A stretch of DNA of 64,000 nucleotides, from assembly GCF_900101595.1 (NCBI RefSeq), contig NZ_FMYY01000026.1, forward strand, positions 1 through 64,000. Reading direction: 5' to 3'. This DNA comes from Paenibacillus sp. cl123. GTDB lineage: Bacteria > Bacillota > Bacilli > Paenibacillales > NBRC-103111. Position 1 is the stretch's first letter, and each line of letters opens with the position of its first letter. The translations under genes were made by a program, and so were the position numbers. The notes beneath the pieces were generated by a model. It ran no database searches and was not told the DNA's origin. It saw nothing but the letters and a program-made list of their open reading frames with translations. Positions 5,492-17,474 of this stretch are shown one piece after another.

Positions 5492-6287
5492 GTAATCCGC
5501 GATAACGCCCCGGCGCCACGCCATAAGTTTCCCTGAAAACTCTGTGAAAATAAGAGTAGCCTCCAAAGCCGCAGGTCTGCGCGATCTGATCCAGCGTCAT
5601 CGACGTATACGTCATCCGCTCCACGGCGGCGGCCAATCTCAGCTCCAGCGCGTATTCCATCATCGTTTTGCCGAAGCATTCCTTGAACAAATGAACAGCC
5701 CGCGATACGCTCAGTCCGGCCTGCTCGGCCGCCTCCTCCACCTTGAAGCTGCGAGTAGCATGCTCTTCAATGAATCTTTTCATGCGGACAGCTGCGAACG
5801 GCTTGCCCTGCTTGGGCGCCGTTTCGGTGACCGCGCGGTCCAGGTAGAGGCATAATGCCCTCAGCAAATAGTCGGTTAGCTCCGCCGTTTCGCCGCCTGC
5901 CGTACGCATATTTTCGAGCAGCAGCTGCTGCCAGAGCGACACCAGCTTCTCATCCAGAACGATCCGGCTGACCGAAGCTCTTTCGCTGCGCCGCCACCAG
6001 CTCTCGAGCCACTCGCCTTCGCCGTACAAATAATAGTCGCCGCTAGCGACGGGAACGAGCTGACCGTCCGGGAGCGGCTGTTCCTCCACAAGCAGCGTAT
6101 ACGTATCGCCGGGCTTGATCAGGATCAGATGGCCGGCTTCGATATGTGCCCAGCGGCCGTTGATGCATACCTGGCAGACGCCCTCTGTCTGCAGGCGGAA
6201 CAGATAATGGGGAGATCCGTTTTTATGATGCATGGTGAAGCGTTCGGAATGAAACGAGTACCCGCAGGTAAGCAGCGTAGCGGACAT
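5475..6287 (-). CDS. AraC-family transcriptional regulator
   Basis: Regulator of 270 residues with an N-terminal cupin-like sensor domain (about 1-130) and a C-terminal double helix-turn-helix (about 170-270). The second HTH shows the family signature around IAQTCGFGGYSYFHRVFRETYGVAPGRYR. The start is the ATG preceded by AAAAGGAG at seven bases; an upstream in-frame ATG has no ribosome site. It is divergent from a sugar isomerase/epimerase and Gfo/Idh/MocA dehydrogenase pair and most likely activates that operon in response to the same sugar or polyol. The shared intergenic region is AT-rich, with a TATAGT -10 candidate at 6371-6376 for the plus side. Confidence 0.92.
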   Translation of the reverse strand: MSATLLTCGYSFHSERFTMHHKNGSPHYLFRLQTEGVCQVCINGRWAHIEAGHLILIKPGDTYTLLVEEQPLPDGQLVPVASGDYYLYGEGEWLESWWRRSERASVSRIVLDEKLVSLWQQLLLENMRTAGGETAELTDYLLRALCLYLDRAVTETAPKQGKPFAAVRMKRFIEEHATRSFKVEEAAEQAGLSVSRAVHLFKECFGKTMMEYALELRLAAAVERMTYTSMTLDQIAQTCGFGGYSYFHRVFRETYGVAPGRYRGLQKKSL

Positions 6288-6427
6288 GACAATTCTCCTT
6301 TTGAGCAATTCGCAGCCAAATTGTTGATGTTTTCATTATATCGTTTATATGCAATAAATTCGATTGTTTGTATAGTAGAAGGAGAAATGGCGCATCACAT
6401 GGAATAAGACAAGGGAGAGTGGATTTC

Positions 6428-7183
6428 ATGAGAAAGATGGGGATTGGCGTTCAGCTGTATACCTTGCGCAATGAAACGGCGGCGGATTTCGAAGGGACGC
6501 TTCGCAAGGTGGCGGAACTTGGTTACGAAGGAGTCGAATTCGCCGGATATGGCGGGCTGTCTGCAGAGGATATGAAAGCGCTCTTGCAGGAGCTGAATCT
6601 GAAGGTTCCCGGCAGTCATGTCAGTCTGGAGCGTCTGCGCAGCGATCTGCAGGGCGAGATCGATTATATGAAAACGATCGGCGGCGAGACGATTATCGTG
6701 CCATGGGCGAAGGCCGAGGATGAGGAAGGCTGGAAGGCGATCATCGCCGAGCTGCAAAGCTTCGGAGAAGAAGTCCGCAAGCAGGGGCTTGGCTTCGGAT
6801 ATCATAACCATGCCTTTGAATTCGAGGGCAAGGTCGGCGAGGCGTTTATTTTCGACGCGATCTTCGAATCGCAGCCTGAGCTGCTGGTCGAGATGGACGC
6901 ATGCTGGGTGCATCGCGGAGGCCAGGACCCGGTCGCCTATATCCGCAAGTACGCCGGAAGACTGCCGCTTGTTCATGCGAAGGACTACAAGGTGGAGGAT
7001 AACAACACCGTAACGCTGGAGCTGGGGCAAGGCATCGTAGCCTTGGACGAAGTGATAGCCGCGGCATCCGAAGCCGGGGTACAGTGGCTGATCGTCGAGC
7101 AGGACAACTGCCAGAACCCGCCTCTGGAAAGCATCGCGAACAGCCTGAATTGGCTGAAAGAGCATTATCTGCAGCGCGTCTAG
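6428..7183 (+). CDS. Sugar phosphate isomerase/epimerase (xylose isomerase-like TIM barrel)
   Basis: TIM-barrel enzyme of 251 residues, IolE/IolI/xylose-isomerase-like superfamily. Visible blocks are GVQLYTLRNE at the first strand, YEGVEFAGYGG, GFGYHNHAFEF and LLVEMDACWVHRGG, which supply the acidic and histidine metal ligands, then LVHAKDY and the glutamate of LIVEQDN near the end. Members isomerise or epimerise keto-sugars or inositol derivatives using a divalent metal. The ATG at 6428 follows AGGGAGAG at a good distance. A dehydrogenase starts 37 bases downstream, so the two likely work in one oxidation/isomerisation route controlled by the divergent AraC regulator. The exact substrate is unknown. 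Confidence 0.9.
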   Translation: MRKMGIGVQLYTLRNETAADFEGTLRKVAELGYEGVEFAGYGGLSAEDMKALLQELNLKVPGSHVSLERLRSDLQGEIDYMKTIGGETIIVPWAKAEDEEGWKAIIAELQSFGEEVRKQGLGFGYHNHAFEFEGKVGEAFIFDAIFESQPELLVEMDACWVHRGGQDPVAYIRKYAGRLPLVHAKDYKVEDNNTVTLELGQGIVALDEVIAAASEAGVQWLIVEQDNCQNPPLESIANSLNWLKEHYLQRV

Positions 7184-7220
7184 AGCTGCGACTATTTAAG
7201 GATGAGGAGAGATACGATTC

Positions 7221-8240
7221 ATGACTAAGCTGAAGGTGGCCGTTATCGGCTGCGGCTCCATTGCCAGAGTTCGTCATATCTTTGAATATTCCCTGCTGCC
7301 GCAGGTAGAGCTCGTCGCATTCTGCGATCTGAACGAAGAGCGCGCGCAAAAATTTGCCGACCAGTACGGCGGCAAGGTGTATACGGACTACCGCACATTG
7401 CTGGCTGAAGTCAAGCCGGATGCGGTCAGCGTGTGTACGCCGAATGCGATTCACGCTGAGGTTACGATCGCGGCTGCCCAAGCCGGCGCGCATGTGCTGG
7501 TCGAAAAACCGATGGCGGCTACGACGGCTGAAGCGGATGCGATGATTCAGGCGGCCGAAGCGGCAGGCGTTCATCTGATGGTCGGGCATAACCAGCGTTT
7601 GATGCCTCCTCATGTGAAGGCGAAGGAAATCCTCGAGAGCGGACGGCTTGGCAAGGTGTTGACCTTCCGCACGTCCTTCGGTCATCCGGGTCCCGAAGGC
7701 TGGAGCGTGGACGGACGGGAGAGCTGGTTTTTCCGGAAGCCGGAAGCGGTCATGGGCGCGATGGGCGACCTGGGCGTGCATAAGTCCGACCTGATCCGCT
7801 GGCTGCTGGCCGATGAGGTTGCCGACGTAGCGGCCTTCGTTGAGACCCGCCACAAGGAAGGCACGGATGTGGACGACAACGCCACTTGCATTTTGCGGAT
7901 GAAAAGCGGCGCGATCGGCACGCTGGTTGCGAGCTGGACGTATTATAAGGGCGAGGACAACAGCACGGTGCTCTGGTGCGAGAACGGCGTTATGAAGATC
8001 GGCACCGATCCGCAGGATCAAGTGATCGTAGAGCTGCGCGACGGCACGGTGGAGAAGTATAATGTCGGCGGCATCTCGACCAATGAGAAGCAGCTGACGA
8101 GCGGCGTCATCCGCGAATTCGTCGAAGGCATCCTGACAGGCACGCCTCCGCGTATTTCCGGGGAGGAAGGCAAACGCTCCCTGCACGTTATATTGGCTGC
8201 ATTTGAATCGCAGGATACAGGGAAAGTTATTTCCTTGTAA
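7221..8240 (+). CDS. Gfo/Idh/MocA-family oxidoreductase
   Basis: NAD(P)-dependent dehydrogenase of 339 residues. The Rossmann fold opens with VAVIGCGSIARVRH, followed by CDLNEERAQKFADQYGG and the family block HVLVEKPMAATTAEA containing the catalytic-site EKP lysine. The C-terminal half is the alpha/beta substrate domain, with GAMGDLGVHKSDLIRWLL carrying the D-xxx-H/K motif. Family members oxidise inositol, sugars or amino-sugars. It is the second gene after the isomerase/epimerase and ends the operon, since a long hairpin follows. The substrate is not readable from sequence. Confidence 0.93.
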   Translation: MTKLKVAVIGCGSIARVRHIFEYSLLPQVELVAFCDLNEERAQKFADQYGGKVYTDYRTLLAEVKPDAVSVCTPNAIHAEVTIAAAQAGAHVLVEKPMAATTAEADAMIQAAEAAGVHLMVGHNQRLMPPHVKAKEILESGRLGKVLTFRTSFGHPGPEGWSVDGRESWFFRKPEAVMGAMGDLGVHKSDLIRWLLADEVADVAAFVETRHKEGTDVDDNATCILRMKSGAIGTLVASWTYYKGEDNSTVLWCENGVMKIGTDPQDQVIVELRDGTVEKYNVGGISTNEKQLTSGVIREFVEGILTGTPPRISGEEGKRSLHVILAAFESQDTGKVISL

Positions 8241-8267
8241 CGGTCCGGCGGACTCTGACATACAAGT

Positions 8268-8314
8268 AAACAAGCTGCATCGGGCTCGCGGAAGCGGGGC
8301 GGTGCAGCTTGTTT
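8268..8314 (+). terminator. Long-stem hairpin after the dehydrogenase operon
   Basis: AAACAAGCTGCA (8268-8279) pairs perfectly with TGCAGCTTGTTT (8303-8314) around a 23-base GC-rich loop that can itself fold. It lies 27 bases after the dehydrogenase stop. It probably acts as a terminator or 3' end protector despite having only a short T-run. Confidence 0.7.
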
Positions 8315-8350
8315 GGCGTATGGACGCAGACTCAGAAGGACGGAAAGCGC

Positions 8351-8567
8351 TGTGGATGAATAGACGGAGGGATGCGGACATATAATCAGAATTGTGTGAA
8401 TTGTGGATAAATTTCTACAAATTCAGTGGATAACCTGGATAAAATTTGATAATCGCGGGATGAAAACCAGAATTGGAGGATTAGTGAGCGGAATTGTGGA
8501 TAAAGCTGTTGAAAATGTGAATAACATGTGTGTAATGTTCGATTATCTGTGTGTGAATTGTGGATAA
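8351..8567 (+). promoter_or_regulatory. Cluster of DnaA-box-like 9-mers in a gene-free AT-rich stretch
   Basis: TGTGGATAA, the reverse complement of the DnaA box TTATCCACA, occurs exactly at 8402-8410, 8495-8503 and 8559-8567. One-mismatch forms are at 8351-8359 (TGTGGATGA), 8425-8433 (AGTGGATAA) and 8516-8524 (TGTGAATAA). All face the same way. Two of the perfect copies sit in an identical 18-mer, GTGTGAATTGTGGATAAA (8394-8411 and 8551-8568). No gene is visible between 8320 and 8630. Bacillus is known to carry DnaA-box clusters away from oriC that bind DnaA, so a similar role is inferred. No dnaA or dnaN is nearby, so this is not oriC. Confidence 0.65.
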
Positions 8568-8630
8568 AATTCTGAAACACAGTTTGGTTAAATGGCCGGA
8601 TCGGTCTTACGCCCTGCTTAGCCCTTATGC

Positions 8631-9365
8631 TTAACCTCGTCCGAAGAAATCTTCTTCCGCCTCTTGTCCTTCGGCATAACCTTCCGTCAGCGGGCCGCCA
8701 TAAGGCGCGAGCCATTCTTCGGCAAGCGTCAGCAGCTGCGATTTATGATAATTCCGGTAAAAGGCCTCAAGCGCCGCAACAAGTTTGCCGCTTGCGCCGG
8801 CATCGCAGTCGCGGAGGCTGCGTACCAGCCATTTGCCTTCGCCAAGCCAGCAGCACCGGGTCCGCAGAGCGAACACGGCGAGCTGACGGCCCAAGTCGGC
8901 GGCAATAAACATGCACTCTGCGCGATCCTCCGCACCGGTCAGATCGGCAGCCAGCTCGCTCAGCTCATAGCGGGCTTTATCGAGCTCCCGGATGTCCCAA
9001 GGAGGCGGACCTGCGGCAAGGGCGCTCCGGGCTTCCTCCAAGATGTCGCTGATGGCGGCTTGCCCGTGCAGCGGCACGCCGCAAGCGCACATCCGCAGCA
9101 GCGAAGGGATGGCGCTTTCGATCGCAACGTCGAAGAAGTACCGGTACGATTCGCGCGTTAGCACGAATACCTCAATGATCCAGCCGAAGTCGCGGTAGGT
9201 CCGGCGGAACGGACCATCCTGCGATTCGTCGAAGATAACCAGGTCCAGATCCGATGCCTCCGTTGCTCCGCCTTGGGCGACGCTGCCGGCCAGCAGCGCT
9301 CCATCGCAAAGAGGAAAATGGGTCTGAACGAACCGCTTTGCCGCTTCTTCCCCGGCTAATCTCAT
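8631..9365 (-). CDS. Nucleotidyltransferase of the DNA polymerase beta superfamily
   Basis: Protein of 244 residues with the minimal nucleotidyltransferase core near the N-terminus: GS at residues 27-28 and the paired aspartates D39 and D41 in SDLDLVIFD, the metal-binding GS-x-DxD pattern. A third acidic residue is probably in WIIEVFVL. The rest is helical, as in aminoglycoside or kanamycin nucleotidyltransferase-like proteins. The substrate is unknown. The ATG at 9365 is chosen because AAGGAGG lies at good spacing; two upstream in-frame starts are too close to or beyond that site. It follows the methyltransferase gene by 54 bases and may share its transcript. Confidence 0.82.
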   Translation of the reverse strand: MRLAGEEAAKRFVQTHFPLCDGALLAGSVAQGGATEASDLDLVIFDESQDGPFRRTYRDFGWIIEVFVLTRESYRYFFDVAIESAIPSLLRMCACGVPLHGQAAISDILEEARSALAAGPPPWDIRELDKARYELSELAADLTGAEDRAECMFIAADLGRQLAVFALRTRCCWLGEGKWLVRSLRDCDAGASGKLVAALEAFYRNYHKSQLLTLAEEWLAPYGGPLTEGYAEGQEAEEDFFGRG

Positions 9366-9419
9366 CACCATGCCTCCTTCGCCCCGACAAGCTTTTGCCT
9401 TCACGATAAAGTTATGCGG

Positions 9420-10145
9420 TCAACCCTTGACCGCACAAATCAGCGCATAACCAAGCTCGGTTTGATGCTGTTGAATCAATTCATCGTGACGCAGCGAAAT
9501 TTCCCATAACGCAGGGTCCAGGAAGGCGGAGCCGTCTGTAATTTGCTGTAGATCGGGATGCTTGATCTGATCTTCGCCCAGATGCTCATCGAACAAGGAC
9601 CGCTCGAGAATCTCGTAGCGGGCAAATCTGGTTGCCGCGAGAGCCTCCAGCCAGCCATCTTCCGTATACAGGCGGTCGAAGCCGAAAAATTCGCTTAAGT
9701 CCTGGCGGGATGGCTCCGGCATATGCGGCAGCGCAATGACTTCGCGGTCATACAGCTTTCCCCCGGCGCGCAGCACCCGGTAATATTCCCCCAGCGCATC
9801 CGGTATGGGAGCGAAGTTGGTGACCGATTCGGCGAGTATGACATCGAAGGAATCCGCTGCGAAAGGAAGTGCGGTAATGCTGCCCTCCACCCACTCGATG
9901 TCCAACTGCTCCGCGGCCGATCGCTTGGCCGCTTTGCCCAGCATCTCGCTGCGCAGATCAAGTCCCGTGACCCGATACCCCAGGCGGGCCAGATAGCAGG
10001 CCGTTCTTCCCGTACCGCAGCCTACTTCCAGTATCCGTCCGCCTGCAGGCAGCGGGTAGCGCTCGAATTGGGTCAAGGTTGCCGCGAAGCCGCCCGGATG
10101 GGCGCTGCCGATCCCCAGGCGCGTCAGCATATCCAAATATCGCAT
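9420..10145 (-). CDS. Class I SAM-dependent methyltransferase
   Basis: Protein of 241 residues with methyltransferase motif I at ILEVGCGTGRTACYLA, the acidic post-I end of strand 2 in VTGLDLRSEML, and motif II/III around SFDVILAESVTNFAPIPDAL and EYYRVLRAGGKLYDREV, as in the Methyltransf_11/25 type. It transfers a methyl group from S-adenosylmethionine; the acceptor cannot be inferred. The ATG at 10145 follows GAGGGGG. It precedes the nucleotidyltransferase on the same strand, which may suggest a joint modification role, but pairings of such generic enzymes are often accidental. Confidence 0.88.
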   Translation of the reverse strand: MRYLDMLTRLGIGSAHPGGFAATLTQFERYPLPAGGRILEVGCGTGRTACYLARLGYRVTGLDLRSEMLGKAAKRSAAEQLDIEWVEGSITALPFAADSFDVILAESVTNFAPIPDALGEYYRVLRAGGKLYDREVIALPHMPEPSRQDLSEFFGFDRLYTEDGWLEALAATRFARYEILERSLFDEHLGEDQIKHPDLQQITDGSAFLDPALWEISLRHDELIQQHQTELGYALICAVKG

Positions 10146-10330
10146 CGTTGTCCCCCTCATCCATATGCATGTGTCTATGTATACTATGAGCGGAAGGATA
10201 AAAGGATATGGTCTGCTGTCCCGGGCCGGGTCATTTTCCTTAGAAAGACATGCTGGCGGCTGCCTTCCCCGGAACCGGGACTTGCAAGACGCGCCTGCTC
10301 CCTGAGACTGAAACTCTGGAGGTATGCGGC

Positions 10331-10926
10331 TTAAGAGCAGAAGAAGGAATCGATCCTCCGCAGATCAAGCCCGAAGAAAATCCAATAGCCGAAAGGACCG
10401 ACCCCGAACCAGCGGAAGCCCGATATCGAGTTGGGGCCGACAAAGGTCAAGTAAATCCAATACTGATCCCCGTTCTGCTGCCATATATAGACGAAGCGGA
10501 ACAGACATCTTCGGATACTGCCCGGATCAACGGCGAACAGCTGAGGATTTTTTTTCGGGATAAAGGATGGGGGACCTGATTGCGGAGCGCCGCTCGGCCC
10601 GCCTGGCCCGCCCGGTCCACCCGGCCATCCGGGTCCGCCGCCTGGCCCGCCCGGTCCGCCCGGCCATCCGGGTCCGCCGCCTGGCCCGCCCGGTCCGCCC
10701 GGCCATCCGGGTCCGCCGCCTGGCCCACCTGGCCCGCCTGGCCACCCCGGCCCGCCGCCCGGCCACCCGGGTCCGCCGCCCGGCCCGCCCGGTCCGCCCG
10801 GCCATCCGGGTCCGCCGCCCGGCCCGCCCGGCAATACGCCCGGCCCCGGGAAGGTCCCTGAGCCGCCCGGCAGCCCGGGGATTAGCCCACGCTGTGCAGG
10901 GACATCATTCGGATCAAAATTCGCCA
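10331..10926 (-). CDS. Gly/Pro/Trp-repeat protein with conserved C-terminal aromatic domain
   Basis: A predicted 198-residue protein in three parts. Residues 1-35 form a short lead beginning MANFDPNDVPAQRG. Residues 36-130 are a low-complexity block of 13-residue units such as GGPGWPGGPGGPG, not a strict collagen Gly-X-Y repeat. The C-terminal 65 residues are aromatic and ordered, including FRFVYIWQQNGDQYW and a final cysteine. There is no signal peptide. Similar repeat-plus-aromatic-tail proteins in bacilli are often spore-surface proteins, but that is inference here. The ATG at 10926 follows GAGGAGAGG. The gene is monocistronic. Confidence 0.75.
10602..10840 (-). repeat. 39-bp tandem repeats encoding the Gly/Pro block
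   Basis: Near-identical 39-bp units begin at 10602, 10641 and 10680, followed by diverged and partial units to about 10840. Each encodes 13 residues of the Gly/Pro/Trp protein. The extreme GC content and high identity make unit number likely to vary by slippage between strains. Confidence 0.9.
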
Positions 10927-11052
10927 TATAACCTCTCCTCTTCAGGGCAAGATGGTTGGTATTGCGCATAGGCTTATGCCAAGACACCCTAACCAACTAT
11001 ATGTAAGCCGCGGAAAAAGCTGAACAAAAAAAAGAAGAGGCTTGCCCGCGGC

Positions 11053-16622: not shown

Positions 16623-16679
16623 GATACATATTCATTCATCGCTCCGGCGAATAAAGGAACTCAAGAGGTGAACAATGAA

Positions 16680-17474
16680 ATGAAAGCATATTTGGATCTG
16701 CTTCACGATGTACTGGAGAATGGCGTTCGCAAGGAAGACCGGACGGGCACGGGCACGGTTTCTGTGTTTGGGAGGCAGATGAGAGTCAATCTGGCGGAAG
16801 GATTCCCCCTGCTGACGACCAAAAAGCTGCATATCAAATCCATTGTTCATGAGCTGCTTTGGTTTCTGAGCGGCAGCACGAACGTGAGCTATCTTCAGGA
16901 AAATGGTGTAAAAATCTGGAATGAGTGGGCCGACGAGGACGGCAATCTCGGACGCGTCTACGGCGCTCAGTGGCGTACCTGGCTGGGCCCGAACGGACAA
17001 GTCGTCGACCAGATCGATCAGGTGATCCGTCAGATTAAAACGAGTCCCGATTCGCGGCGGCATCTGGTCAGCGCGTGGAATCCGGCTGAGGTGGACGGAA
17101 TGGCGCTGCCGCCGTGTCACTATGCCTTCCAATTTTATGTGGCCGACGGGCGGTTATCGTGCATGTTCCAGATGCGTTCGGTCGATACGTTCCTGGGCCT
17201 TCCTTTCAACCTGGCTTCGTACGCGCTGCTGACTCATATGGTTGCCCAGCAGGCGGGGCTGGAAGTGGGCGACTTGATCTGGACCGGCGGCGATGTGCAC
17301 ATTTACTTGAACCATCTGGAACAGGTGAAGCTTCAGATGACGCGCGAGCCTTACCCACTGCCGACGCTGACAATTAAGCGCAAGCCCGATTCGATCTTCG
17401 ATTACCGGTACGAGGATTTCGAATTCACAGGCTATCAGTCTCATCCCGGCATCAAGGCGCCGATCGCAGTCTAG
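16680..17474 (+). CDS. thyA: Thymidylate synthase
   Basis: Makes dTMP from dUMP using methylene-tetrahydrofolate as one-carbon donor and reductant. The 264-residue length is exactly that of the short, E. coli-type ThyA. The N-terminus ([15 protein letters not shown]), the folate/dUMP block [14 protein letters not shown], the active-site [12 protein letters not shown] with nucleophile C146, and [16 protein letters not shown] are all present. The ATG at 16680 follows AGAGGTG by nine bases; an upstream in-frame GTG would add four residues. folA starts 16 bases downstream, so the enzyme that regenerates the spent dihydrofolate is co-transcribed. Confidence 0.97.

Follow-up and report, generated by a model that had tools for sequence, protein, structure and literature searches.

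The window analysed here, a stretch of 64,000 nucleotides of Paenibacillus sp. cl123 DNA, carries, on another contig than dnaA, a group of DnaA boxes, the binding sites of the initiator of chromosome replication. This raises the question whether the group is real, whether it could be an origin or a control element for a nearby gene, and what DnaA would do if it bound there. In the following, G000 denotes the 7.27 Mb draft genome from which the window comes, and G006 the one related genome in which a counterpart was found.

Six DnaA boxes between converging gene ends

An earlier note on this DNA had claimed three perfect and three one-mismatch DnaA boxes, and all six are present on the minus strand, spanning 217 bp between two gene ends:

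7221-8240, plus strand: Gfo/Idh/MocA oxidoreductase gene (Pfam PF01408), left flank, reading toward the cluster
8268-8314, plus strand: hairpin separating the cluster from the oxidoreductase gene, an inverted repeat with 15-nt arms
8351-8359, minus strand: DnaA box with one mismatch (TCATCCACA); no counterpart box at that position in G006
8402-8410, minus strand: perfect DnaA box (TTATCCACA) in copy 1 of an 18-mer; aligns to TTATTCACA in G006
8425-8433, minus strand: DnaA box with one mismatch (TTATCCACT); not conserved in G006
8495-8503, minus strand: perfect DnaA box (TTATCCACA); aligns to TCATCCACA in G006
8516-8524, minus strand: DnaA box TTATTCACA, one mismatch, fitting TTATNCACA; 8/9 bases kept in G006
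8559-8567, minus strand: perfect DnaA box (TTATCCACA) in copy 2 of the 18-mer; 9/9 bases kept in G006
8631-9404, minus strand: nucleotidyltransferase-like gene, right flank, reading toward the cluster with its stop at 8631
9420-10160, minus strand: methyltransferase gene (PF08241), used as synteny anchor; its G006 orthologue lies beside the cluster there

The 18-mer TGTGTGAATTGTGGATAA, also described in the earlier note as carrying perfect boxes 157 bases apart, is seen at 8393-8410 and 8550-8567, an offset of 157 bp. The box cluster at 8351-8567 is real and non-random, and chance is excluded: 20,000 dinucleotide-preserving shuffles of 8345-8575 averaged 0.012 perfect boxes, or 0.22 when up to one mismatch was allowed, and the observed 3 perfect or 6 near boxes were reached in 0/20,000 of them. 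GC content in the box region is 34-38% (about 36%) versus 55-65% in the background, and GC skew is strong. Folding the cluster itself as RNA gave no signal (z -0.8 and -0.3), and an Rfam scan of 6000-11000 returned no family.

The host has a single dnaA gene, located on contig C16, and its product carries GGRDHTTVIHAHEKI, which we take to be the DnaA signature and canonical box-reading motif. Because host DnaA has this motif, TTATCCACA should be the box that it reads. The consensus given for the B. subtilis DnaA box is TTATNCACA (PMC4447404).

The hairpin folds stably (8262-8330: -38 kcal/mol, z -6.7) and probably terminates the oxidoreductase gene; the protein encoded at 8631-9404 matched nothing in Pfam or NCBIfam. 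Because the cluster occupies a stretch without genes where two converging genes end, past this strong hairpin, promoter control is unlikely. We therefore consider it very improbable that the boxes form a DnaA-dependent regulatory site for a nearby gene, as DnaA does at B. subtilis ywlC or sda; while DnaA does act on transcription at certain clusters (PMC4447404), both genes next to the window cluster end at it, promoter-like matches are weak (9/12), and the neighbours differ in G006.

Genome-wide rank and features of an origin

To place the cluster in its genome, we ranked all of G000 by the density of TTATNCACA per 300 bp. Genome-wide, TTATCCACA occurs 49 times versus 20 for the reversed control and TTATNCACA 141 times versus 82 for its control. 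Random scatter would yield ~5e-6 groups of four TTATNCACA within 300 bp, whereas three such places were observed:

C12:68104, downstream of leuA: five boxes, top site
The window cluster: four boxes, three of them perfect, tied for second
C16, region upstream of dnaA (half of oriC): four boxes, tied for second

In a ranking of the kind that the earlier note had proposed, the window cluster stands joint second with the dnaA-upstream half of oriC; this rank counts strict boxes only, so that clusters built solely from weaker boxes would be missed.

The claim that the window cluster is not oriC holds, given that dnaA is on another contig and that the window contains no parS within 3 mismatches. The cluster contains no DnaA-trio while a trio-like CTACTACT is present in the dnaA-dnaN gap, and its most AT-rich 30-mer has 23% GC versus 13% in the dnaA-dnaN intergenic region. 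Because a DnaA-trio and a strongly AT-rich stretch for unwinding are lacking in comparison with that gap, an origin is disfavoured, and we rejected assignment to bacterial oriC. A remnant or ectopic origin, e.g. from an integrated plasmid or phage, is hardly probable either. AT-rich direct repeats of DnaA boxes do recall origins of the iteron type, and a transposase of the Mutator family (IS256-like) lies at 45-1265 of the window, ~7 kb from the cluster; however, the ten neighbouring proteins scanned include no replication-initiator family or other replication gene, the plasmid and phage collections searched hold no similar sequence, the DnaA-trio is missing, and two species share the position.

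The top-ranked site provides a yardstick. The array downstream of leuA, the gene for 2-isopropylmalate synthase, lies at G000:C12:68094-68340, comprises 8-10 boxes and was found in 25/25 genus genomes with near-fixed spacings (near 9, 63, 26, 9, 64 and 12) and many invariant box columns. Beyond the genus, parts of it match elsewhere in the family and order, though the short matches may be due to the boxes only. The array and the window cluster have the same box consensus, are both non-coding and lie on the same chromosome arm in two complete relatives; in contrast to the array, the window cluster is found in 2/25 genomes, has looser spacing and comprises only six boxes. The leuA array is the more striking and stronger case. 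The leuA array and two boxes of the window cluster have a 64-bp spacing in common, probably by coincidence, as the other intervals differ. Upstream of tadA, a further cluster (G000:C37:16506-16605) has three perfect boxes with spacings of 12 and 79 that are identical in G000, G006 and G013, and lies ~30 kb from oriC in G013. We note that G008 has a box set resembling this cluster.

Because G000 is a draft, we used the gene order of the complete genomes G013 and G011 to estimate how far from oriC the window cluster lies. The window also contains thyA (16668-17474), and in these two relatives methyltransferase and thyA are 25-40 kb apart. In G013 (8.74 Mb; dnaA at position 340) the pair is found at 0.96-1.00 Mb, and in G011 (4.70 Mb) it lies 0.72-0.75 Mb away from dnaA. 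This suggests that the window cluster is ~11-15% of the genome from oriC; the leuA array is 7-9% from oriC in the same two genomes.

Conservation and history of the cluster

In a set of 100 related genomes, DNA matching the cluster occurs in G006 alone, a member of the same genus; when the G006 sequence was in turn searched against 104 genomes of the family, it returned G000 plus two box-free matches (G135 and G057) that we put down to chance. In the genus the cluster is thus present in 2/25 genomes, the sister pair G000/G006. The G006 cluster has five boxes, in one orientation as in G000, and lies beside the orthologous methyltransferase gene, whereas the nucleotidyltransferase-like gene is missing and a DUF5060/apiosidase-like gene replaces the oxidoreductase gene. 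Of note, the nucleotidyltransferase-like gene adjoins the methyltransferase gene in nearly all genus genomes. The cluster therefore persists in both genomes although both immediate neighbours changed. Four box positions align between the two genomes with 8/9 or 9/9 bases identical; a single base separates most of the aligned boxes, and two of the six boxes have no G006 counterpart. In 8486-8570, identity is 32/36 (89%) in boxes and 29/49 (59%) in spacers (Fisher p 0.003), a comparison that is biased upward by the definition of boxes from either genome.

Other methyltransferase orthologues in the genus have no box cluster within ~1.5 kb. The next relative, G018, has kept the order methyltransferase, nucleotidyltransferase, sugar isomerase, MarR, MFS; at its syntenic site, between nucleotidyltransferase and sugar isomerase, there is a different gene and no boxes, and the cluster is likewise absent from the 22 other genus genomes. 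The expectation that the site would be conserved in relatives is thus supported by the sister species and contradicted by all other genus genomes. In a tree of the methyltransferase, G000 and G006 are joined with support 89/84 and G018 is outside. The simplest reading is that the cluster is lineage-specific and probably arose by a single gain in the common ancestor of G000 and G006; a loss in G018 is a possible alternative. The gain probably came in part by local duplication of the box-bearing 18-mer.

Because only 2/25 genus genomes have the cluster, it is not essential. The same distribution fits the idea that DnaA binds here with little or no selective consequence, the box duplications having drifted to fixation in one lineage without measurably affecting initiation; so do the two boxes unshared with G006 and the conserved leuA array already present in the genus. 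Against it speak the lower divergence of boxes than of spacers in the aligned core and the survival of the cluster when its two neighbouring genes were replaced, and we regard neutrality as unlikely, albeit the likeliest of the rival readings.

A predicted DnaA sink and its known counterparts

Because placement disfavours promoter control and the missing origin features disfavour an origin, DnaA binding as such remains. Our working hypothesis, to which we assign a probability of about 0.7, is that the window cluster, located on the chromosome away from oriC, takes up DnaA cooperatively and serves as a sink for it, in the manner of the B. subtilis DnaA-box clusters (DBCs). Specifically, DnaA would bind the boxes at 8351-8567 cooperatively, the copy number of a cluster 11-15% from oriC would double early in replication, and the extra binding would lower free DnaA so that the next initiation would be delayed a little. 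The boxes tend to be in phase with a 10.5-bp helical repeat (G000, p 0.056; G006, p 0.001) and would thus face much the same side of the helix, as a cooperative complex might require; the leuA array lacks this phasing, and we treat it as suggestive only.

In B. subtilis, single DBC deletions do little, and the effect is strong only when six are removed together; a single site like the window cluster may likewise have little effect on its own. That species has six strong DnaA-binding clusters away from oriC, among them one downstream of both gcp and ydiF that is a top DnaA site in vitro, with 10 boxes and a Kd of 0.15 uM (PMC4447404), and loss of all six DBCs brings initiation forward (PMC5295017, PMC13220808). 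The window cluster resembles these DBCs in having several TTATNCACA boxes within ~300 bp, beyond chance, in an intergenic region outside oriC. It resembles the gcp/ydiF site in particular in its position between two converging gene ends and, if its inferred position is correct, in relative distance from oriC, which for gcp/ydiF is 628 kb in a genome of 4.2 Mb. It differs from that site in its flanking genes, fewer boxes and lineage-specific occurrence. Orthology to a named B. subtilis DBC was rejected because the flanks are not gcp, ydiF, ywlC, ywcI, vpr, yydA or sda (PMC4447404). The window cluster can therefore be of the same kind as the DBCs without being an orthologue of one; we infer its function by analogy, as an addition to a known kind.

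E. coli datA is also a non-coding cluster away from oriC, with ~five high-affinity DnaA boxes, and lowers initiation; it differs in acting through IHF and ATP hydrolysis. Such non-coding clusters in E. coli (PMC5295017) give some precedent for a DARS-like or datA-like site that alters the nucleotide state of DnaA instead of titrating it. Because datA function needs IHF binding (PMC5295017), and IHF, Hda and DiaA are lacking in B. subtilis (PMC13220808), we find such a role here extremely doubtful.

Returning to the predicted sink, the earlier note had reasoned that a matching site in Paenibacillus would suggest conserved replication control. A DBC-like cluster is present and is kept in one relative, but replication control shared with Bacillus is not supported; conserved control fits the leuA and tadA arrays better, and the window cluster is better seen as a lineage-specific addition. 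Tentatively, the cluster could be a recently gained extra DnaA sink on top of the genus-wide array, and G000, G006 and the empty-site genome G018 would then offer a natural experiment on the tuning of initiator-titration capacity as species diverge. Among the open-access papers searched, we found none on DnaA-box clusters in Paenibacillus, and the weight of clusters outside oriC in Gram-positive replication timing is unsettled; a lineage-gained cluster together with a near-fixed genus-wide array offers comparative material for initiator titration outside B. subtilis.

Two smaller box groups were also seen in G000. One is a perfect box pair ~18 kb from dnaA (G000:C16:146275-146374), the 91-bp spacing of which is also found in G006, and the other (G000:C32:37696-37794) consists of five boxes close to the consensus, upstream of a gene resembling that of seryl-tRNA synthetase.
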